Assembly: GCA_021296265.1 (NCBI GenBank)
Contig: JAGWAT010000003.1
Span: 138,862-202,861, forward strand
DNA from: Alphaproteobacteria bacterium
GTDB lineage: Bacteria > Pseudomonadota > Alphaproteobacteria > TMED109
DNA: 64,000 bases
Direction: 5' to 3'
Part shown: one piece after another, positions 13,598 through 45,960 of the stretch
Layout: each line of letters starts with the position of its first letter
Numbering within the stretch: the first letter of the stretch is position 1
Notes under the pieces: model-generated
Told to the model about the DNA's origin: nothing
The model's input: the letters and a program-made list of their open reading frames with translations, nothing else
Database searches by the model: none
Position numbers and translations under genes: made by a program

Positions 13598-14460
13598 TAC
13601 CGGCCCAGCGTTGCGAGTACATGATTCCGAAGCTCCTGATCCACTCTCGGCCGCACGCCGAACCAGCCTTCGAATCCCGGGACCGCCTGATGCAGGAGCA
13701 TTCCGAGACCGTCCACCGTGGCCAGTCCGCGACGTGAAGCCGTCCGCAGCAATGCAGTTTCGAGGGGCGCGTACACGATATCCGCCACGACTGCATCGGC
13801 GGCAAGGCCTGCAAGGTCGGGGTCCAGGGTCGGGCCGTCCATCATCCCAAGGGTTGACGTATTGACCAGCAAGCCTGCCCCATCAAGCTCCGCTTCGAGC
13901 GCGCGCAGACCTATCGCACGCGTATTGTCGAACTGCTGGATGATATCTTTGGCCTTGGCCAGCGTGCGGTTGGCGATCACGATTTCACCATCTAATTCGG
14001 CGCGAAGACCCGCTACCACGGCGCGCGCCGCACCGCCTGCACCCACTACGACAGCTCGCCGATCCGACCGGGACCACCCAGGTGCCTGCTCGCGCAGCCC
14101 CTCAAGAAAGCCGTCCACGTCGGTGTTTCTTCCCAGTAAACGCCCGTCTTGGATGACGATTGTGTTTACTGCTCCCACGACGCTGGCCAGCGTGCTTTCT
14201 TCATCGACAAGTGCCCGTGCCTCCACCTTGTGCGGAACCGTCACGTTGCAACCGCGAAATCCCAGGGCAGGCAGTGCTCGGAGCGCTGTCGCAAGATGTC
14301 CCGGTTGCACCGGTAACGGCACGTACGCTGCATCCAGCCGGTACTTGCGAATCCAAAACGAGTGAATGCGCGGCGACAGCGAGTGGCCGACGGGCCAGCC
14401 AACGATACCGGCAAGCTGCGTTCCTCCGGACGAAGCCCTCGTCAACGCATCCTCCGTCAT
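13597..14460 (-). CDS. aroE: shikimate dehydrogenase
   Basis: Reduces 3-dehydroshikimate to shikimate with NADPH in chorismate synthesis. The 287 residues show SLSPRIHSFW (28-37), the catalytic Lys78 in NVTVPHK, Asp115 in GRNTDVDGF and the NADP loop VVGAGGAARA. It is coupled to ppsR by ATGA. In many alphaproteobacteria maf stands between ppsR and aroE; it is missing here. Confidence 0.96.
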   Translation of the reverse strand: MTEDALTRASSGGTQLAGIVGWPVGHSLSPRIHSFWIRKYRLDAAYVPLPVQPGHLATALRALPALGFRGCNVTVPHKVEARALVDEESTLASVVGAVNTIVIQDGRLLGRNTDVDGFLEGLREQAPGWSRSDRRAVVVGAGGAARAVVAGLRAELDGEIVIANRTLAKAKDIIQQFDNTRAIGLRALEAELDGAGLLVNTSTLGMMDGPTLDPDLAGLAADAVVADIVYAPLETALLRTASRRGLATVDGLGMLLHQAVPGFEGWFGVRPRVDQELRNHVLATLGR

Positions 14461-15296
14461 TTCGAGTCCTGACGCTTGCGGATCAGTTCCAAGACCGACG
14501 CCGATGTTTCCTCGATGGATCGGCCGGTCACATCAATTGTGGGCCAACCCATGCGCGCGTACATCCGGTTCGCTTCGACGACTTCGTCACGAATCCGGAC
14601 GCGGTCCGAATATTCTGCATCGGCTCCCACACCAATCGATGACAATCGCGCACGCCGGAGAACCGACAGCCGGTCTGGAGAAGTGGTCAGAGCCACGATG
14701 AGCGCAGTCCCGGTGCCGTCCTCGATCCAGCGTGGAAGCTCAATGCCAGGAACCACCGGTATGTTGGCTACGCGGACGCCCCGGTTGGCCAGATACATTG
14801 CAGTAGGCGTCTTCGAAGTCCTGGAAACGCCCACCAGCACGACGTCTGCGTCCTCCGCCTGGGCGGCAAGCTGTCCATCGTCATGGGTCAGCGCAAATTC
14901 CATCGCCTGGATCCGCTGGAAATACTCTCGGTCAATCCGGTGCTGTGCGCCCGGCCGGCTCGCGGCAGGTTCGACCCCCAAGATCGTGGACAGAGCGGCC
15001 ACCACGGGGTCTAGGATCGCCAGCGTCGGCACCCGCAGACGGCGGCACTCCGTCTCAAAGACGGTGCGGAGTTCCTCATCCGCCAGCGTGTAGAGCGCAA
15101 TTCCACGATACCTGTCAATCAGTTTCAGGACACGGTTCATCTGGGATCGCGTACGGACCAGAATCGCAGTGTGTTCAACAGTTTCGATATCGCGAAAGTA
15201 GGCGACCGCCGCACGGGCAACCGTACTTACCGTCTCGCCGGTTGAATCCGAAACGAGATGGATGTGGAAAGGGCTGCTGGAAAACGCCTGATCCAT
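14457..15296 (-). CDS. ppsR: pyruvate, water dikinase/PPDK regulatory protein (DUF299)
   Basis: A bifunctional ADP-dependent kinase and phosphate-dependent phosphorylase that controls phosphoenolpyruvate synthase or pyruvate phosphate dikinase by threonine phosphorylation. The 279 residues carry the N-terminal HLVSDSTGET (13-22) and the P-loop-like GVSRTSKT at 156-163. First gene of the minus-strand ppsR-aroE-coaE-dnaQ cluster. A DnaA-box-like TGTGGAAAA starts two bases upstream of its ATG. Confidence 0.93.
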   Translation of the reverse strand: MDQAFSSSPFHIHLVSDSTGETVSTVARAAVAYFRDIETVEHTAILVRTRSQMNRVLKLIDRYRGIALYTLADEELRTVFETECRRLRVPTLAILDPVVAALSTILGVEPAASRPGAQHRIDREYFQRIQAMEFALTHDDGQLAAQAEDADVVLVGVSRTSKTPTAMYLANRGVRVANIPVVPGIELPRWIEDGTGTALIVALTTSPDRLSVLRRARLSSIGVGADAEYSDRVRIRDEVVEANRMYARMGWPTIDVTGRSIEETSASVLELIRKRQDSK

Positions 15297-15987
15297 GTGT
15301 GGAAAAATTCCGACGTAGGCCGCACGCCAACCTGCCGCTGGCTAGTGCCCCGAACTCTCTGGGACCTCGCACAGGTTATACGAAACAGTGAGATCCACCC
15401 CCCAGAACGACGACAACCCCTTAGAGATCAATTTCCCACAGCTCTTGACAGTTGTTCATTGCAGCATCAATCGCTGATCAGACAATAGATTGGTAATGTT
15501 TTCCAGATCCTCTCAACACATTTATGGGCATAGATGACCTTAGTCGTATTCTTTGCAAAAGGTCCGAAAAAACCTCTAATTCCAAATACCAACACAGCAA
15601 TAACCATTAACTATTTATATAAACTAATGCATGTTTTTAGTTGCAAGCGGGACCAGAAACACGTATATCGTGAGTTCGGCATGCCTGCCCTTCCCAGACG
15701 GGGACGCACCGTTAGCCCCGCTCGTCGGCACAGCCTCCCAGCTTCTGATCGGCTTTGACAGTCGGTAGCACAGGTTGACTCGTTCCGGTGCGTTGGTAGC
15801 GTTACCCGCTGTTCGACCGGATCCCGCAACGCGGATTAGGTCCGGCTCACGGAACATCGGCCCTATTGACGCGTCCGGATTGTGGGGCGATCTGGCTGGT
15901 TAACTGCTCCCAGGGTTGAGTGTGTTCTGTCCCTGCAGCCAGCAACTCTTGTTCCGCTGTTGAATCGCTACTCCACGGATTTTTCTT
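15297..15987. other. AT-rich gene-free divergent region, candidate replication origin
   Basis: A 691-base intergenic region between divergent ppsR and rho. By hand count, 70 of the 100 bases at 15541-15640 are A or T, in a window that is otherwise strongly GC-rich. There is one DnaA-box-like site with a single mismatch (complement of TTTTCCACA, 15298-15306) and weaker ones at 15432-15440 and 15499-15507. Genes on both sides point away from it, and rho, mnmE, mnmG and two parS sites lie within 18 kb. These are origin-region hallmarks in alphaproteobacteria. It must also hold the promoters of ppsR and rho. No protein or tRNA gene is evident. Confidence 0.5.
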
Positions 15988-17247
15988 ATGCACCTTCAGG
16001 AATTGAAACGTAAATCGCCTGCCGATCTTCTTGCCTTCGCTGAAACAGAGGGCGTCGAGAACGCCGGTAACCTGCGAAAGCAGGACATCATGTACGCGAT
16101 CTTGCGGGCTAGGGCAGACCGGGAAGAGCCAATCTACGGCGAGGGCGTGATTGAAGTGATGCAGGACGGATTTGGATTTCTGCGCTCGCCAGAATCCAAT
16201 TACCTGTCCGGGTCGGATGACATCTACGTCTCGCCAACCCAAATAAAACGTCTCGGTCTTCGAACCGGAGATACAGTTGAAGGAGAGATCAGTCAGCCTG
16301 ATGAGGGCGAGCGTTATTTCTCTCTGCTTAAAGCCACGAAAATAAACTTTCGACAGCCTGAAGAAGTTCGGAGCCGCGTCAATTTTGACAACCTCACGCC
16401 TTTGTATCCGGACAGTGCGATCAAGCTCGAAGTAGAGTCGGGCTTGCCGGCAGGCGACAGTACATGCCGGGTGATTGAGTTGGTCGCGCCTCTAGGCAAG
16501 GGACAGCGAGGCCTGATTGTCGCGCCACCAAGAACCGGAAAGACAGTGGTGCTGCAGAATATCGCCCACGCGATCGAGGAGAATCACCCAGAAATCTATC
16601 TAATCGTGCTGCTCATTGATGAACGCCCGGAGGAAGTCACCGACATGCGTCGTTCGGTCCGGGGGGAGGTTGTGAGCTCCACTTTCGACGAGCCGGCGAC
16701 GCGGCACGTGCAGGTGACCGAGATGGTGAACCGTAAGGCGAAGCGGTTGGTTGAGAATGGTTACGACGTGGTGATCCTGCTGGATTCGATCACCCGCCTG
16801 GCGCGCGCCTACAACACGGTGGTCCCGAGTTCCGGCAAGGTCTTGACCGGCGGGGTTGATTCGAACGCACTGCAGCGTCCGAAACGGTTTTTTGGGGCTG
16901 CCCGGAACATCGAAGCCGGAGGCTCCCTCACTATCATCGCGACCGCACTGATCGAAACCGGCTCGCGGATGGACGAAGTGATTTTCGAGGAATTCAAGGG
17001 CACGGGAAACTCGGAAATCGTGCTCGATCGAAAGCTGGCCGACAAGCGCGTGTTCCCGGCGATAGACATCGCCAAGTCCGGAACGCGGAAAGAAGAACTC
17101 TTAGTGGAAGCGGAAGACCTTACGAAGATGTGGGTATTGCGGCGGATTCTGTCGCCGATGGGAACATCCGACGCAATGGAATTCCTGCTGGAACGGCTTC
17201 GGCCGACCAAGAACAACGCCGAGTTCTTCGATACGATGAATCAGTAG
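15988..17247 (+). CDS. rho: transcription termination factor Rho
   Basis: Hexameric RNA helicase that ends transcription at unstructured C-rich RNA. The 419 residues show the N-terminal helix domain, the cold-shock RNA-binding fold with [13 protein letters not shown] (61-73), the P-loop APPRTGKT (179-186), Walker [17 protein letters not shown] and the secondary RNA site with the Q-loop and R-loop near [21 protein letters not shown]. Preceded by the long AT-rich region; long rho leaders can support autoregulation, but no specific element is recognised here. Confidence 0.98.
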
Positions 17248-21677: not shown

Positions 21678-22997
21678 TTGGCCGGAGACACGATTGTCGC
21701 CCCGGCGAGCGGACCGCCGCCAAGCGCCATCTGCGTCATCCGGATTTCGGGGCCAGCAACCAGGGAAGCGCTATACCAACTATGCGGAACGCAGCTCCGG
21801 CCGCGCTGCCTGGTCCGCGTCACACTGCGCGAAATGGAACGGGCCGTCCCTCTTGATGAGGGGCTGGCGGTGTATTTTCCGGGCCCCGACAGCTTTACCG
21901 GTGAGGATGTCGGCGAACTGCACGTGCACGGGAGCCGGGCTGTCATTGACGGCGTTATCGATGAGCTTTGCCGGCTTCCCGACGTCCGTCCGTCCGAACC
22001 GGGTGAGTTTTCCCGGCGGGCCTTTGCCAACGGGAAACTTGATCTCGTCCAGGCCGAGGGCATTGCTGATCTTGTGGCGGCGGAGACACGTCTCCAGCGC
22101 ATTCAGGCCATCCGTCAGCTGCAGGGCGGCCTCAGTGAGCTTTACGACTCATGGCGTTCCCGGGCCATCGCATGTTTGGCTGAGGCCGAGGCGTCGCTCG
22201 ACTTCATCGACGAGGCCGACGTGGGCTCGGTCGCGCTGGATCCGGCGAAACCGCGATTGCTGGCCCGCGATATCGCAGCACATCTCGACGACGACCAGCG
22301 CGGAGAGCGGTTGCGTGAAGGGTTTCGCGTTGCCGTGCTGGGCCCCCCCAACTCGGGGAAATCCAGCCTGGTGAACCTGCTGGCACGACGGGAAGCAGCC
22401 ATCGTCTCGTCCACCGCCGGCACGACGCGGGACATCATCGAAGTGCACCTGAGCTTAGGGGGGTGGCCCGTCACACTCGCCGACACCGCGGGAATTCGGG
22501 AGGCCGGGGACTCGATCGAGCGCGAAGGCATCCGGCGGGCATTGAACTGGGCCAAGCAGGCGGACGTAACGGTGTTTCTGGGCGATCTTTCCACCGACGA
22601 GGAGTCCTGCGTCGCATCAACGCCGGCGCGGTCGCTACAGGTCTGGAACAAGTCGGATCTCCGCTCGCCGGCACGGGACCCGCGCGTCACGAACGATGAT
22701 GTCGTGATTTCCTGCCGAACCGGCAAAGGCATCGACGAGCTGCTCGAAGCCCTGCGAGCCGCAGTCGCAGCGGTTGGCGGTCACCCGGAGGATGGATTGG
22801 CCCTGACGCGGGTACGGCACCGGCAAGCGCTGAAGCGCGCCGCAGAGGCGCTACGAAGGGCCGCTCAGGTCGAAACAATGGAGCTGGCTGCTGAAGAGTT
22901 GCGGGCCGCGGCTCATGCGCTGGGCCGGATTACGGGCCGCGTCGACGTGGAGGACGTGCTGGACCGGGTGTTTTCCAGCTTCTGCATCGGAAAATGA
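21678..22997 (+). CDS. mnmE: tRNA uridine-5-carboxymethylaminomethyl GTPase MnmE
   Basis: With MnmG it makes cmnm5U34 in tRNAs. The 439 residues have the N-terminal folate-binding domain, a GTPase domain inserted in the helical domain (G1 GPPNSGKS at 222-229; G3 DTAG at 269-272) and the C-terminal FCIGK with the family cysteine (436). The start is TTG without a clear SD. In many alphaproteobacteria mnmG is adjacent; here it is 8.2 kb away. Confidence 0.97.
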   Translation: MAGDTIVAPASGPPPSAICVIRISGPATREALYQLCGTQLRPRCLVRVTLREMERAVPLDEGLAVYFPGPDSFTGEDVGELHVHGSRAVIDGVIDELCRLPDVRPSEPGEFSRRAFANGKLDLVQAEGIADLVAAETRLQRIQAIRQLQGGLSELYDSWRSRAIACLAEAEASLDFIDEADVGSVALDPAKPRLLARDIAAHLDDDQRGERLREGFRVAVLGPPNSGKSSLVNLLARREAAIVSSTAGTTRDIIEVHLSLGGWPVTLADTAGIREAGDSIEREGIRRALNWAKQADVTVFLGDLSTDEESCVASTPARSLQVWNKSDLRSPARDPRVTNDDVVISCRTGKGIDELLEALRAAVAAVGGHPEDGLALTRVRHRQALKRAAEALRRAAQVETMELAAEELRAAAHALGRITGRVDVEDVLDRVFSSFCIGK

Positions 22998-23197
22998 GGA
23001 AGCTCTCGACGGCCGTCGAGGCGGTGCGGGCGCCTGCCAAACCGGACATGGTTCAGCCCGCGCTGGCCGCAGATCAGAGCAACGGGCCTGCAGTACGGTT
23101 AACGCGCCGCCAATCAATCGGGTGCGTTGATGACCCTGTCTGGGTATGGTTTGCTCTGACGCTGGGAAGACAGCTTGGACGGATCAGGAGAACGAAC

Positions 23198-24466
23198 ATG
23201 GCCGTATTGAAGTGGGTCCGCACGCTCGGGATCACGTTGCCGATCGTCCTCGCTGCGTTCTCGGCCCGTGGGGCGGACACGGTCAAGCTCGGGTTGATAG
23301 AGCCGTTCTCCGGCCCCATCGCCGCCGTGGGCCGCGACACGCTGGAAATCTTTGAATTCTTCGCGAACGAGGTGAATCAGAGGGGCGGTGTTTTGGGCGG
23401 GCGGCACATCGAGATCGTGCCGCTCGACAATGCGATGAACGCGGAAAAGACCACCCAGCAGCTCCGCAAGGTCATCGATGATGAAATTCGCTTCGTGAGC
23501 CAGGGCGTCGGTTCGAACCACGCCCTCAACATCATCAAGTTCCTGATGCGACACAACCGCCGGAATCCGGATCAGGCAATCCTGTATCTCAATCATTCCG
23601 CGGTGACGACGTCGTTTACGAACGAGCTTTGCTCGTTCTGGCATTTTCGATTCGACGCGAACGTGGATATGAAAGTTGCGGCACTGGCAACGCAGATCGG
23701 TCGCGACCCTTCAGCCCGTAAGCTCTACATGCTCAACCAGAACTATGCATACGGCCAGGCGTTTCAGGCGGCGGCACAGCGCCTGCTGGCCGAGCGCGCG
23801 CCCGAGGCTGAACTGGTTGGTGACGAACTCGTTGTTCCATTCGGCAAGGTGCTCGATTTCACCCCGTACATCGCGAAGATCAAGGCTTCCGGCGCCGACA
23901 CGGTCTTGACCGGTAACTGGGGGCCTGACCTGGTGCGCTTTGTCAAGGCGGCCGCCGAGGCCAACTTGGACGTCGCCTTCTACACAATCTACGCAGGCAT
24001 ACCGAGTTCGGTGGCAGGCATCGGTGCCAAGGATGGTATCGCGACGCAGCTGAAGCAAGTCACTGAAATGCACGAGAATGATGCGTTGTATGACCAGCAG
24101 CCTGCGGATCTCCTGGATACGTATGACCGTTGGCGTCAACAGACCGGCAAGAGCATCTATTCAGAGCGCATGCGCTGGACGATCGAGTACTTCGCCGCGG
24201 CACTGGACAAGGCCGGGAGTGACGATCCTGCTCTGGTTGCGGCTGCGATGGAAGGCATGGCGATGGAGGGGCCGGCTGGCCCCATGGTCATGCGCGCCGC
24301 CGATCATCAGATCATCTTCCCGATGGTCATCAGCACAATGACCGAGGATGTGGGACGGCCGTTTATCTACGATGGCGAAGATTATGGGGTGGCGTTTGCC
24401 ACTGACGGCTGGATCATGTCGGACGCAATCGAGCTTCCGACCACGTGCGAGATGAAGCGCCAGTGA
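23198..24466 (+). CDS. branched-chain amino acid/amide-type ABC transporter, substrate-binding protein
   Basis: A 422-residue periplasmic binding protein of the LivJ/Peripla_BP_6 family, with a signal peptide ending near FSARGAD (about residue 21). The mature part starts with VKLGLIEPFSGPIAAVGRD, typical of family leaders. The start ATG follows GGAG by seven bases; the open frame extends 68 codons upstream but that part overlaps mnmE and lacks a signal peptide. It opens the five-gene transporter operon. The solute cannot be deduced; amino acids, amides and urea are all carried by the family. Confidence 0.92.
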   Translation: MAVLKWVRTLGITLPIVLAAFSARGADTVKLGLIEPFSGPIAAVGRDTLEIFEFFANEVNQRGGVLGGRHIEIVPLDNAMNAEKTTQQLRKVIDDEIRFVSQGVGSNHALNIIKFLMRHNRRNPDQAILYLNHSAVTTSFTNELCSFWHFRFDANVDMKVAALATQIGRDPSARKLYMLNQNYAYGQAFQAAAQRLLAERAPEAELVGDELVVPFGKVLDFTPYIAKIKASGADTVLTGNWGPDLVRFVKAAAEANLDVAFYTIYAGIPSSVAGIGAKDGIATQLKQVTEMHENDALYDQQPADLLDTYDRWRQQTGKSIYSERMRWTIEYFAAALDKAGSDDPALVAAAMEGMAMEGPAGPMVMRAADHQIIFPMVISTMTEDVGRPFIYDGEDYGVAFATDGWIMSDAIELPTTCEMKRQ

Positions 24467-24528
24467 TCGATTGACACGCGTCCACACGTCTGGCCGGGTG
24501 CCAGGTAGCGCGGGTAGGGCGATTTCAC

Positions 24529-25476
24529 ATGGAGAGCATCATATTCGCGATGTTCAACGGCGTGCTGTACGGCATGCTGCTGTTCCTCCTCGCGAGCGGG
24601 CTCACGCTGATCTTCAGCATGATGGGGGTGCTGAATTTCGCGCATGCCAGTTTCTTCATGCTGGGTGCATACTTTGCGTACCAGATCAGTGAGGGGCTGA
24701 ACTTCTGGGCAGCACTGTTTGTTGCGCCTGTGATCGTCGGCTTGGTGGGAGCGGGAATCGAGCGCTGGGGCTTACGACCCGTACATCGATACGGCCACGT
24801 CGCTGAACTCCTCTTTACGTTCGGCGTGGCGTATGTGATCGAAGAACTGGTGCAGATGATATGGGGACGCGTGCCGGTCCCTTACGAAATTCCTGAATTG
24901 ATGTCGGGTGCCCTGTTCACGTGGCAGGGGTTTGACTACTCGATTTACCGTGTCTTCATGCTGGTCGTGTCCGTGGCTATTTTTGTCGCCCTGTTCGCAC
25001 TGCTGACCTACACCCGCATCGGCTTGATCATCCGTGCGGCAGTGTCTGATCCGGTCCACGTCGCGACGCTCGGGCATGATATTCCCCGCATCTTCATGTG
25101 GACGTTCGGTTTTGGCTGTGCTCTGGCTGGAGTGGCCGGAGTGGTTGGCGGGAACGTGTTGGGGACCGAGCCGGCGATGGCGATCCAGCTTGGGCCGATT
25201 GTCTTCGTGGTCATCGTCATCGGCGGCCTGGGATCACTTGGGGGCGCGCTGGCGGCGGCGCTGCTCATCGGAATCATCACCAGGCTTGCGATCTTTTACG
25301 ACTATGGGTTGGGCAGCCTCTTGCTTTCGCTGGGGCTCGAGATTGACACCACGGGGCTACTGCGGGATTTCACACGGATCACGACCGCGCAAGTTGCCCC
25401 TGTACTTCCGTATCTGATGCTCGTGCTGATGCTGATCTTTAAGCCACGCGGTCTGTTTGGTACCCGAGACGTATGA
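24529..25476 (+). CDS. livH: branched-chain amino acid-type ABC transporter permease LivH
   Basis: A 315-residue inner-membrane permease with about eight hydrophobic segments, starting IIFAMFNGVLYGMLLFLL. The conserved LNFAHASFFMLGAYFAYQ segment near residue 36 and the GGLGSLGGALAAALLIG loop identify LivH. It follows the binding protein by 62 bases and overlaps livM by ATGA. AGGG lies ten bases before the ATG. Confidence 0.93.
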   Translation: MESIIFAMFNGVLYGMLLFLLASGLTLIFSMMGVLNFAHASFFMLGAYFAYQISEGLNFWAALFVAPVIVGLVGAGIERWGLRPVHRYGHVAELLFTFGVAYVIEELVQMIWGRVPVPYEIPELMSGALFTWQGFDYSIYRVFMLVVSVAIFVALFALLTYTRIGLIIRAAVSDPVHVATLGHDIPRIFMWTFGFGCALAGVAGVVGGNVLGTEPAMAIQLGPIVFVVIVIGGLGSLGGALAAALLIGIITRLAIFYDYGLGSLLLSLGLEIDTTGLLRDFTRITTAQVAPVLPYLMLVLMLIFKPRGLFGTRDV

Positions 25477-26738
25477 GCATGTTGATCGGCAGGTTGACTC
25501 CATGGATTGCCGGTGCGGCGGCTTTGATTGCCTTACCGCACGTTTTTTCGTCTGGCTTCGCGCTTACCCTGATGAGCCAGATCGGGTTGCTGATTGTATT
25601 TGCACTGGCCTACAACATGCTGCTGGGCCAGGGAGGAATGCTGTCGTTCGGCCACGCGGTGTATTTCGGGCTGGCAGGTTACTTCACGGTTCACTACCTG
25701 AACTTCATCTACGAGGAGCAGGTTCCCTACATCCCGGTCACGCTGATTCCGCTCTTCGGCGGCCTCGTCGGCCTGTTCTTCGGAATCCTCATCGGTTACG
25801 TCTCCACTCGGCGGGCCGGGACCACGTTCGCGATGATTTCGCTTGGGTTTGGCGAAATGGTGACCGCCCTCACTTTGGTGCTGGTAGCCATTTTCAACGG
25901 CGAGGACGGGATTCAGGCCGATCGGGTGCTCGGAGAAGAGCTGTTCGGGATCACGTATGGGCCCAACATTGAGGTCTACTACCTGATTGCAGGATGGTGT
26001 CTGGTCTGCACGCTGGCCATGTTCCTGCTGACGCGAACCCCGTTTGGGCGTATCTCGAACGCTGTCCGCGACAATCCGGAGCGCGTGGAGTTCATCGGGT
26101 ACTCCAGCCAGCGCATTCGCTGGCTGGCATTCTCGCTGTCTTCGTTTTTTGCAGGTATCGCCGGTGCCCTGCACGCTGTGAATATTGAGCATGTCGGTTT
26201 CGAGCAGGTAAGCGTCATTCAGTCGGGTTTGGTGCTGTTCATGGTGTACATCGGCGGAACGGCGACCTTCGTAGGCCCGATTATCGGTGCCACCTTGCTC
26301 TATTTCCTGCAGAGCACGCTGACCGGCGTCACAGAGGCGTGGGTCCTGTATCTCGGGGTCCTGTTCGTGGGCGTTATCATGTTTTTCCCCGGCGGCCTCG
26401 CGGGGTTGATCGCCATGCATCAACCCATTTGGCGTGTGCGCGCGCGACTCCTGGCACCTCTGCTGATTCCCTATTCGCGGTTTCTTGCCGCCCTGATCGT
26501 TTGTGTTCTGGGGTGTATCGGCTTGATTGAGATGCTCTACTTTCGTAGCTCTCGGCTCAGTACGGAAACGGAATTGGTCATTTACGGCGTTGAAAGTGAT
26601 CCGTTTTCTGCCGGGCCTTGGTTCATCTTCGTTGCCGCCGCTGCCATTGGCGCCTTTGCGGTTCGCAAGACCTATCCCAGCGCAGTGTCAGCCTGGAACA
26701 CTGCCATCGCCGACGCCCGCGCAAGGCCTCCCGGATGA
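25473..26738 (+). CDS. livM: branched-chain amino acid-type ABC transporter permease LivM
   Basis: The second permease, 421 residues, with the LivM signature LAYNMLLGQGGMLSFGHAVYFGLAGY (about 41-66) and GRISNAVRDNPERVEFIGYS. The core usually ends near 320-350 residues; this protein carries a C-terminal extension of roughly 90 residues with two more hydrophobic stretches (near LIPYSRFLAALIVCVLGCIG and AGPWFIFVAAAAIGAFAV). Start and stop both overlap neighbours by ATGA, giving tight stoichiometric coupling. Confidence 0.92.
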   Translation: MSMLIGRLTPWIAGAAALIALPHVFSSGFALTLMSQIGLLIVFALAYNMLLGQGGMLSFGHAVYFGLAGYFTVHYLNFIYEEQVPYIPVTLIPLFGGLVGLFFGILIGYVSTRRAGTTFAMISLGFGEMVTALTLVLVAIFNGEDGIQADRVLGEELFGITYGPNIEVYYLIAGWCLVCTLAMFLLTRTPFGRISNAVRDNPERVEFIGYSSQRIRWLAFSLSSFFAGIAGALHAVNIEHVGFEQVSVIQSGLVLFMVYIGGTATFVGPIIGATLLYFLQSTLTGVTEAWVLYLGVLFVGVIMFFPGGLAGLIAMHQPIWRVRARLLAPLLIPYSRFLAALIVCVLGCIGLIEMLYFRSSRLSTETELVIYGVESDPFSAGPWFIFVAAAAIGAFAVRKTYPSAVSAWNTAIADARARPPG

Positions 26739-27484
26739 GCGGCGCGCTTACACTCGCTGGCCTTCGGAAGAGTTTTGGCGCGGCGGAAATCATTCGCGGA
26801 GTCGATCTGGAGATCGAGGACGGAGAGCGACACGCGATCATCGGGCCAAATGGGGCAGGCAAGTCGACACTCTACAACCTGATCAGTGGAAGGTTCCCTC
26901 CGTCGGCGGGCCGTGTCCACTTGTATGACACTGATATCACCGACAAAAAAGCCTTTGACATCAATCGGCTGGGATTGACCCGATCATTTCAGGTCACGAA
27001 TATCTTTGCGCGGATGAGCGTGCTGGACAATGTCCGTTGCGGCTGCCTGTACGCTTTGGGCCACCGTTATGCGTGGTGGAAACTCGTGGGGCGCCTGCAG
27101 GACGTGAACGAGCAGACGGCCTCAATCCTTCGGGATATCGGGCTCTGGGAGAAACGGGAACTTCCGGCGGGGCTGTTGTCGTACGCTGATCAACGCGCCC
27201 TTGAGCTTGGGATCGCCATCGCCGGCGGCGCCAACGTAATCCTGCTGGACGAGCCAACGGCAGGCATGAGCCACTCCGAGGTCGAGCAAGCGGTGTCACT
27301 GATTCGCCGCATATCAGAGGGCAAGACTCTCTTGATTGTGGAGCACGACATGGGGGTGGTGTTCGATTTGGCGGACCGGATCTCCGTCCTGGTGTATGGG
27401 GAGATCATTGCGACCGGCACGCCCAGCGAGATTCGCGCCTCCGCGGCCGTGCAGGAAGCCTACCTCGGCACAGGAGCAAGCTAG
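26735..27484 (+). CDS. livG: ABC transporter ATP-binding protein LivG
   Basis: A 249-residue ATPase with Walker A GPNGAGKS (37-44), the LivG-type signature LSYADQ (148-153) in place of LSGGQ, Walker B ILLDEP (169-174) and a switch histidine in IVEHDM. The start is set by the ATGA overlap with livM. It should pair with LivF in the transporter. Confidence 0.94.
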   Translation: MSGALTLAGLRKSFGAAEIIRGVDLEIEDGERHAIIGPNGAGKSTLYNLISGRFPPSAGRVHLYDTDITDKKAFDINRLGLTRSFQVTNIFARMSVLDNVRCGCLYALGHRYAWWKLVGRLQDVNEQTASILRDIGLWEKRELPAGLLSYADQRALELGIAIAGGANVILLDEPTAGMSHSEVEQAVSLIRRISEGKTLLIVEHDMGVVFDLADRISVLVYGEIIATGTPSEIRASAAVQEAYLGTGAS

Positions 27485-28179
27485 TGCTGGAAGTCCGGGA
27501 CCTGCACGCTTACTACGGAAAAAGCCATATTATACAAGGCGTTAACTTTGACATTGGCGCCGGTGAAATCGTCAGTTTGTTGGGACGCAATGGCGTGGGG
27601 AGGTCGACAACGCTGAAGGCCATCACAGGTGAAGTAGAGCCTGTTGGCACCATCAACTTCAAGGGCGAACCCATTGCGGGCAGGAAGATGCACGAGATTG
27701 CCCGCCGGGGAATCGGATACGTGCCTGAGAACCGAAATATTTTCCCAACGTTAACCGTCCGCCAGAACCTGATCCTTGGAATCAAGAACATGCGGGATCA
27801 GGGGCGATGGTCAATTGGCGATATGTTTGAAATGTTTCCCAATTTGGCGGAACGGGCCGATGCACTGGGTTCAGTGATTTCAGGTGGTGAGCAGCAGATG
27901 CTGACGATCTGCCGCACACTCATGGGCGATCCCGATCTCATCATGATTGACGAACCGACGGAAGGGCTGGCGCCGAAGCTGGTCGAGCAGGTGTCGGGTC
28001 TGCTTGCAGAGATTGCGAAACGGGGCATTGCCATCTTGCTGGTTGAACAAAAACTTGACATTGCACTCGACATTTCTCATCGAGTCCACGTCATGGGGCA
28101 CGGAAAGATCGTGTTTGGAGGCACGGTCAGCGAATTTCGAGCGAACAGCCAGGTTCGGAAAGAGTGGCTCGAAGTTTGA
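27484..28179 (+). CDS. livF: ABC transporter ATP-binding protein LivF with Arg at the Walker A lysine
   Basis: A 231-residue LivF: signature SGGEQ (133-137), Walker B LIMIDEP (152-158) and the LivF-specific GYVPENRNIFPTLTVRQNL. Walker A reads GRNGVGRS (34-41): residue 40, encoded by AGG at 27601-27603, is arginine where lysine normally contacts the ATP phosphates. From memory some LivF subgroups share this change, so it is not necessarily inactivating. Starts at GTG overlapping the livG stop by one base (TAGTG). The next gene is convergent. Confidence 0.93.
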   Translation: MLEVRDLHAYYGKSHIIQGVNFDIGAGEIVSLLGRNGVGRSTTLKAITGEVEPVGTINFKGEPIAGRKMHEIARRGIGYVPENRNIFPTLTVRQNLILGIKNMRDQGRWSIGDMFEMFPNLAERADALGSVISGGEQQMLTICRTLMGDPDLIMIDEPTEGLAPKLVEQVSGLLAEIAKRGIAILLVEQKLDIALDISHRVHVMGHGKIVFGGTVSEFRANSQVRKEWLEV

Positions 28180-31128: not shown

Positions 31129-31158
31129 GTGCCAATGTTTCACGTGAAACATTGGCAC
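31129..31158. other. parS centromere site 1
   Basis: A perfect 30-base palindrome whose core TGTTTCACGTGAAACA (31136-31151) equals the bacterial parS consensus bound by ParB. Flanks extend the symmetry by seven bases on each side. It lies in the intergenic region 69 bases before mnmG. Confidence 0.9.
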
Positions 31159-31227
31159 GACTTGACTCGTGCGGGGATTGCAGGAACGGTCGCTTCGGCA
31201 GGCGACTGATCGGCAGGTAGGCAGGTG

Positions 31228-33093
31228 ATGCGCTCACGAGGCTACGACGTCTTGGTTGTCGGTGGCGGGCATGCAGGCTGCGAAGCAGCCGCAGCGGCTG
31301 CACGCATGGGAGCCCGAACGGGCTTGGTGACTCACACGTTTTCCACTGTTGGCGCCATGTCCTGTAACCCGGCATTCGGTGGTGTCGGAAAAGGACATCT
31401 GTTGCGGGAAGTGGATGCATTGGATGGATTGATCGCTCGTGCAGCGGATCAGGCCGGCATGCAGTTCCGTGTTCTCAATCGCAGTCGCGGGCCGGCCGTG
31501 CACGGGCCTAGGTGCCAGGCGGACCGGAAGCTTTATCGAACCGCCATGCAGCAACTGCTTCGCGAACAGCCGAATCTCGCGATTGTCGAAGGATCCGTGG
31601 AAGACCTGCTGCTAGACCAGGACCGTCGGGTGAGCGGGATTGTATTGGGCGATGGCTGTGAACTCCGGGCGGGCTCGGTGGTCATAGCGACCGGAACCTT
31701 TCTGCGGGGCATGATCCACGTTGGGGACTCGCAAACGCCGGCCGGCCGTGCTGGCGAGGCGCCGGCCACCCAGCTAGCTGAACGGCTCGCCGTATCTGGT
31801 TTTCGGTTGGGTCGGCTGAAGACCGGGACACCGCCGCGCTTGGACGGCGCGACAATACGCTGGGACGAACTCGAGATACAAGAAGGAGACCCTGTTCCGG
31901 AACCGCTGTCGCTCATCACGGAGCGGATCGAGCGACCGCAGGTGCCATGCCATATCACCTGGACCAACGAGGCGATGCACCGATTGGTCCGCGCTAACCT
32001 GCATCGGACGCCGATGCACGCTGGCCGGATTGAGGGAAGCGGACCAAGATACTGTCCTTCCATCGAGGACAAGGTCGTCCGCTTTGCCTCGCGTCCACGG
32101 CACCAAGTCTTCCTCGAACCGGAAGGCTACGACGATTCCACGGTCTACCCGAACGGGATCTCCACGTCGTTACCGGCTTCGGTCCAGGAAGACATGCTCT
32201 CTCTGATCACGGGGCTTGAGACCGTGCGGATGGTTCGCCCTGGGTACGCTATCGAATACGACTACGTCGACCCCCGAGAACTATTGCCGACATTGGAGAC
32301 CAAACGGCTCCGAGGATTGTTCTTTGCCGGCCAGATCAATGGCACGACGGGTTACGAAGAGGCGGCCGCCCAAGGTGTGGTCGCGGGCATCAATGCGGCG
32401 AGCCAGGCAGGTGGCAAGCCGGCGTTCACGTTTGATCGGGCTGAGGCCTATATCGGTGTCCTGATCGACGACCTCACCACTAGGGGGGCGCCCGAACCGT
32501 ACCGCATGCTGACATCCCGTTCGGAATACCGTTTGCATTTGCGGGCCGACAACGCCGATGAGCGCTTGACGCCAAAGGGGGAAGCGGCCGGTGTGGTTGG
32601 AACCCTGCGCGCACGCGCATTCGCCGAAAAGTCGGCAAAACTGACGGCGGCACGCCGGTTGCTGGGGGAAACACGGGTAAGTGTGTCGTCGGTGCGCCGA
32701 CACGGCATTGCCGTTTCCGACGATGGGGGGCGCCGGTCTGCCATGCAGTACCTCGGATACGCCAGTGTTACTCTCGCCAAGCTCGCGGAAATCTGCCCTC
32801 AACTCGATGCCATTGAGTCATCACTGCACGGGATTCTGGAAGCCGATGCCCTGTACGCTCCGTACAAGGCCCGCCAAGATGAAGATATTCGCGCCTACCG
32901 TCGCGATGCCGCCGTGCGAATGCCAGACATCATCGACTACGGTTCGGTAGGGGGCCTCTCCGCTGAAGCGACCGAGGCGTTGGAGGCTAGCCGACCATCG
33001 ACGCTGGCATCAGCTGCCCGCCTGCCCGGGGTGACGCCGGCGGCCTTGACAGCGGTTGTGGCGCACCTAAAAAAAATGTCCGCTAACGCCTGA
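31228..33093 (+). CDS. mnmG: tRNA uridine-5-carboxymethylaminomethyl synthesis protein MnmG
   Basis: FAD-dependent partner of MnmE. The 621 residues open with the dinucleotide fold [12 protein letters not shown] (10-21), followed by [26 protein letters not shown], the MnmG signature, and [14 protein letters not shown] 31228 follows AGG-rich sequence; a GTG one codon upstream is in frame. A parS site lies on each side of the gene. rsmG, parA and parB, which follow mnmG in many relatives, are not found downstream. Confidence 0.97.
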
Positions 33094-33117: not shown

Positions 33118-33139
33118 GGATGTTTCACGTGAAACATCC
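33118..33139. other. parS centromere site 2
   Basis: A perfect 22-base palindrome with the same core, TGTTTCACGTGAAACA, at 33121-33136, 25 bases after the mnmG stop. The spacing from site 1 is about 2 kb. The remaining 180 bases before the next gene show no recognisable gene. Confidence 0.9.
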
Positions 33140-45825: not shown

Positions 45826-45960
45826 GACAACCTCCTTCGGCGCATGCTGAGGAGGCTGACGCCCGTGATTGCCATCTGGCCACATCTCCCTACCGGGAAA
45901 CCACCTTGCACGGGCTGCAGGTTGGTGGGGTACGTCAACCCCTCAGGATGCAGTGACGAC
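45826..45960 (-). promoter_or_regulatory. structured metF-metH leader with SD-sequestering hairpin
   Basis: In the minus-strand transcript, GGGG-loop-CCCC and ACCTGCA/TGCAaGGT hairpins come first, then CCCGTG (45914-45909) can pair with CACGGG (45867-45862) around a TCCC-GGTA-GGGA stem. Last comes CCTCCT (45855-45850) pairing with the SD AGGAGG (45836-45831). The layout resembles a translation-controlling riboswitch. I could not match it to the SAM-II, SAM-V, SAH or cobalamin consensus. Pairings were found by eye. Confidence 0.4.

Follow-up and report, generated by a model that had tools for sequence, protein, structure and literature searches.

The window is a stretch of 64,000 nucleotides (G000:C4:138862-202861) from a draft genome of 2.54 Mb in 77 contigs with a completeness of 93.8%. 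By name, its genus mates are Alphaproteobacteria/Rhodospirillales with genomes assembled from metagenomes. Between ppsR, the start codon of which ends at position 15296, and rho are 691 bases without a credible gene, and both flanking genes are transcribed away from this interval (Table 1), as a sequence-only reading of the same DNA had stated. PF03618, the family of ppsR, was formerly called DUF299 and is that of the COG1806 gene. The left part of the interval, about 390 bp, is predicted to be a chromosomal origin of replication and the right part, about 250 bp, the promoter and leader of rho. No Rfam family matched the interval even at an E value of 1, and a simple scan found no sigma-70 consensus promoter in it. 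The dnaA gene is located on contig C12, intact and with a recognizable DNA-binding motif.

Table 1. Features of the ppsR/rho region and of its surroundings, in window coordinates
Feature	Position	Strand	Remarks
ppsR	14457..15296	-	PF03618, E 2e-84; COG1806/DUF299 family; classical alphaproteobacterial origin flank
Gene-free interval ppsR/rho	15297..15987		691 bases; predicted chromosomal origin plus rho promoter/leader
DnaA box TTTTCCACA	15298..15306	-	Exact TTWTNCACA; one mismatch to TTATCCACA; kept in 6/6 genus members covering the site
Block GCACAGGTTATACGA	15369..15383		Identical in all 6 genus members covering it
Weak DnaA-box-like site TTTCCCACA	15432..15440	+	Genus mate L025 has exact TTTTCCACA at the same place
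IHF-like site TACCAATCTATTG	15483..15495	-	Differs from WATCAANNNNTTR at one base; one genus mate has an exact site, another has none
Weak DnaA-box-like site TTTTCCAGA	15499..15507	+	Exact TTATCCACA nearby in genus mate L027
AT-rich core, candidate DNA-unwinding element	15540..15646		71% AT; most AT-rich 100-mer in 1.93 Mb
Weak DnaA-box-like site TTTTGCAAA	15552..15560	-	Second subclade has TTTTCCAAA
Block GGTTGACTCGTTCCGGTGC-TTGGTAGCGTTA	15773..15805	+	Nearly invariant in 7/7 genus members; probable start of rho promoter/leader
rho	15988..17247	+	TIGR00767, 672 bits; holds the flank that hemE has in relatives
mnmE	21678..22997	+	
mnmG	31225..33093	+	
Perfect parS TGTTTCACGTGAAACA	31136..31151		
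Perfect parS TGTTTCACGTGAAACA	33121..33136		

A crude GC-position gene-calling script delimited 261 gene-free stretches of 300 bp or longer in 1.93 Mb (76% of the assembly), and the interval was ranked among these. It was first of the 261 with respect to the number of sites that deviate from TTWTNCACA by one base at most and also first for the most AT-rich 100-mer. Four such sites were present, compared to 1.0 expected from dinucleotide shuffles (p 0.03), so that the boxes alone are weakly above chance in this genome. One of them was exact and none matched TTATNCACA; genus-wide, further exact boxes occurred in L025 and L027. The near-consensus box of the sequence-only reading was found as described, and three sites (15432, 15499, and 15552) had one mismatch each. 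Its count of 70 A/T at 15541-15640 was exact; the best 100-mer, starting at 15540 or 15547, contained 71 A/T and the next best elsewhere in the window 57. The AT content was 48.5% for the complete interval and 71% for the core, and mostly about 30-40% along the contig.

Conservation between both subclades of the genus extended to the AT-rich core and a number of short blocks. Block GCACAGGTTATACGA may be either the ppsR promoter or a weak initiator site. The right third of the interval contained a nearly invariant TTGACTC block and a leader with a few compensatory pairs, which are probably the promoter and the 5' leader of rho. Strict DnaA-trio repeats (TAG/TAA three times) were present only in the relative L181 and in no member of the genus. 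Just upstream of hemE, L179, L180, and L181 carry AT-rich tracts followed by TAG- or GTAG-like repeats and GTTGG, resembling DnaA-trios, and a degenerate form of these repeats may exist in the genus. The assembly of one genus mate breaks within the interval, at the AT-rich core (contig end of G003:C2, L026).

Computed on 240 of the 241 kb of the contig, the cumulative GC skew reached its minimum at window position 16038 and the keto skew its own at 15740. The GC-skew minimum was at the same place in five further species of the genus, +50 to +59 from the rho ATG in all six members with data. In a scan of 1.93 Mb (76% of the assembly, in pieces with the contig order unknown), the ppsR/rho region was the strongest ±30-kb skew vertex with a sign change. 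The sequence-only reading had named a skew inflection elsewhere as the result that would speak against an origin; none stronger appeared in these 76% of the assembly, and the five genus mates share the vertex. A competing ±10-kb vertex at C4:105400 did not persist at ±30 kb. The local skew at C4:105001-120000 is reversed against its own replichore, possibly indicating a recent inversion or insertion.

Divergent flanking genes, a promoter-like block that is nearly invariant, and a moderately conserved rho leader in the right third could also mean that the interval only provides ppsR and rho with divergent promoters and leaders, with the AT-rich core as promoter DNA and the skew as a consequence of gene orientation. 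This is very improbable. At fourfold-degenerate sites in the 40-kb arms, the skew changed from -0.004 on the left to +0.057 on the right in genes of the plus strand, and from -0.066 to +0.066 in those of the minus strand. The shift is therefore not a product of gene orientation, because it occurs in genes of both orientations, and the skew moreover continues over tens of kilobases, across blocks in which the orientation of the genes is mixed. Together with the vertex shared by five other genomes, this largely refutes the explanation by promoters only.

Skew vertices resolve origins coarsely, to about 20 kb (PMC1914354), and the true origin might accordingly be situated within this distance, such as near parS in the segment from rho to mnmG, with the interval as an approximation of the vertex. 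However, the minimum, although it locates the origin only to within about a kilobase, fell into one and the same interval in all six genomes with data, this interval is the only AT-rich, box-bearing gap of the neighborhood, and its ppsR flank is conserved class-wide. An origin at some other nearby site is by this evidence slightly less probable still than a mere promoter region.

The experimentally found origin of Caulobacter and the predicted one of Rickettsia are positioned between hemE and the COG1806 (DUF299) gene (PMC1914354). Outside the genus, 25 alphaproteobacterial genomes, including 13 from the same family, have the PF03618 gene facing hemE, with a gap of 270-930 bases between the profile matches. 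In these genomes, rho is about 2.4-4.3 kb away from the ppsR match where both are on the same contig, and in many of them rho is preceded by a ferrochelatase-like gene and another short gene. Within the genus, ppsR directly faces rho in six of the seven genomes, with the seventh interrupted there by the end of a contig, and all seven carry hemE on a different contig. The sequence-only reading had found hemE to be absent, which is true for the window; the gene is on contig C10, where it is part of the run hemC-x-hemB-hemE-x-hemH (L172:13945-19919), overlaps hemB, and has no upstream gap. The protein is 37-40% identical to the copies of the relatives. A hemJ query gave no match in the part of the genome that was searched.

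The gene order suggests that the hem genes were relocated to a heme operon and that the origin stayed with ppsR. This explains the missing hemE: the ppsR flank has kept its position, and with the hem genes now elsewhere, rho faces ppsR. That the origin instead traveled with hemE and left an abandoned site behind at ppsR/rho has a precedent in Wolbachia, in which hemE is distant from COG1806 and the origin is predicted to lie beside hemE (PMC1914354), but it is hardly conceivable here and was rejected, since hemE overlaps hemB without an intergenic gap and the skew around it shows no sign change comparable to that at ppsR/rho. Similarity to the origins of relatives beyond the genus was not significant: local alignments with the ppsR-upstream intervals of four relatives (twelve tests) gave no convincing match. 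The best match at the AT-rich element was L028 versus L181 (p 0.05); a single test of the twelve gave a lower value (L023 versus L182, 0.01), outside this element.

The perfect parS sites on either side of mnmG, at +15 and +17 kb from rho, are the only two in the genome, with none expected. In nearly all relatives, including those of the same family, parB is on the rho side of the origin. In the genus of the window, parAB is on the ppsR side, about 25 kb to the left of the origin and in opposite orientation (L009:7835-9741 on C4). ParB is located within about 45 kb of parS, and the centromere is therefore still origin-proximal. In another genome, three more perfect parS sites occur within 200 bases at G001:C34:39003-39201, not on the origin contig, which indicates either a second replicon or a relocated cluster.

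None of the seven genus intervals contained a CtrA site (TTAA-N7-TTAA) with up to one mismatch. Using a Caulobacter CtrA sequence as query, no CtrA ortholog was found at an E value of 1e-50 in any of the 28 genomes of the family (G000-G027), but one was present in 26 of the 33 genomes from other families. ChpT was not found in the family either, apart from weak matches inside 467-aa proteins, and GcrA-family proteins were present in most of its members. These searches point to an apparent family-wide loss of the CtrA relay.

With regard to Cori of Caulobacter crescentus, the hemE/COG1806 interval of 404 bp, the locus shares the COG1806 (PF03618) gene on one flank and transcribed away from it, an AT content higher than that of the genome, DnaA boxes, a dnaA gene situated elsewhere, and the gene neighborhood that contains rho and the par locus in relatives. 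It differs in its other flank, which is rho instead of hemE, in the CtrA sites, with none compared to five in Cori and no detectable ctrA, in a lower number of strong DnaA boxes, and in a doubtful IHF site. Measured against a Cori-type origin, the ppsR flank, the number of DnaA boxes, and the AT-rich segment agree and the hemE flank and the CtrA sites do not; the strand-independent GC-skew minimum and the nearby parS sites are those of bacterial origins in general.

The predicted origin of Wolbachia lies between COG1253 and hemE (PMC1914354). Like those of Wolbachia, Ehrlichia, and Anaplasma (COG1253/hemE), the ppsR/rho locus has lost one classical flank by rearrangement, and some members of that group also have few or no CtrA sites. 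Their origin, however, is predicted to have stayed with hemE, whereas at ppsR/rho the origin kept its place beside ppsR and hemE departed. The ppsR/hemE intervals of L179, L180, and L181 are similar in possessing DnaA boxes toward ppsR, divergent flanks, and an AT-rich tract, which is on the hemE side; they differ in having exact TTATCCACA or TTATTCACA boxes as well as hemE, and they did not align significantly with the genus of the window.

The skew inflection at ppsR/rho, which is nowhere stronger, and the synteny therefore support the origin proposed by the sequence-only reading, as does the ranking for sites and AT content. With a probability of roughly 0.93, the interval 15297-15987 is the chromosomal replication origin, being Cori-type by position and content. 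The observations behind this are the skew vertex and its strand-independent shift, the ranking, the synteny, the conservation, and the absence of CtrA matches; DnaA binding, the unwinding point, and firing at the interval are inferred. The single exact box and the p of 0.03 for the box count, the missing CtrA sites, the imperfect IHF site, a draft of 77 contigs scanned to 76%, the resolution of the skew minimum of about a kilobase, and the lack of significant similarity to origins beyond the genus count against an origin.

At such an origin, DnaA would load onto the box adjoining ppsR and onto the weaker sites within the 260 bp at the left, and may then open the AT-rich core at 15540-15646. 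Two forks would start, one running through ppsR and the other through rho toward parS. The hemE-hemH-hemJ block, normally between origin and rho, is gone from this spot in the genus, with hemE and hemH in the heme operon and hemJ not found, leaving rho, with its own probable promoter and leader, as the new border of the origin. The CtrA repression typical of Caulobacter would be absent, as CtrA sites are missing and neither ctrA nor chpT was detected.

The type of this origin is already known; its neighbors are changed and CtrA control is absent. In this lineage, the conserved origin position follows ppsR and not hemE. A family that lost CtrA may operate a Cori-type origin independently of the CckA-ChpT-CtrA relay, with DnaA and perhaps GcrA as the only regulators, and with the origin of the genus having additionally lost its hem flank and parAB having moved to the arm opposite parS; the odds of this proposal appear to be even. 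It has been suggested that CtrA acquired its cell-cycle control after its role in motility (PMC8116508), and an origin persisting in a family without detectable CtrA bears on this motility-first idea. If true, a CtrA-independent origin would be a natural CtrA-free comparison for the control of the Caulobacter origin. For an uncultivated alphaproteobacterial genus, knowing where the origin lies provides the draft genomes with an origin point and makes it possible to estimate growth rates from read depth.

Two other features of the window were recorded. An operon for an ABC transporter of the branched-chain amino acid/urea type, conserved in the genus and with a lower GC content (about 58%), is located between mnmE and mnmG (window 22994-28179), and an SAM-I/IV riboswitch is present on the minus strand at window 45855-45956 (Rfam RF01725, 57.4 bits).
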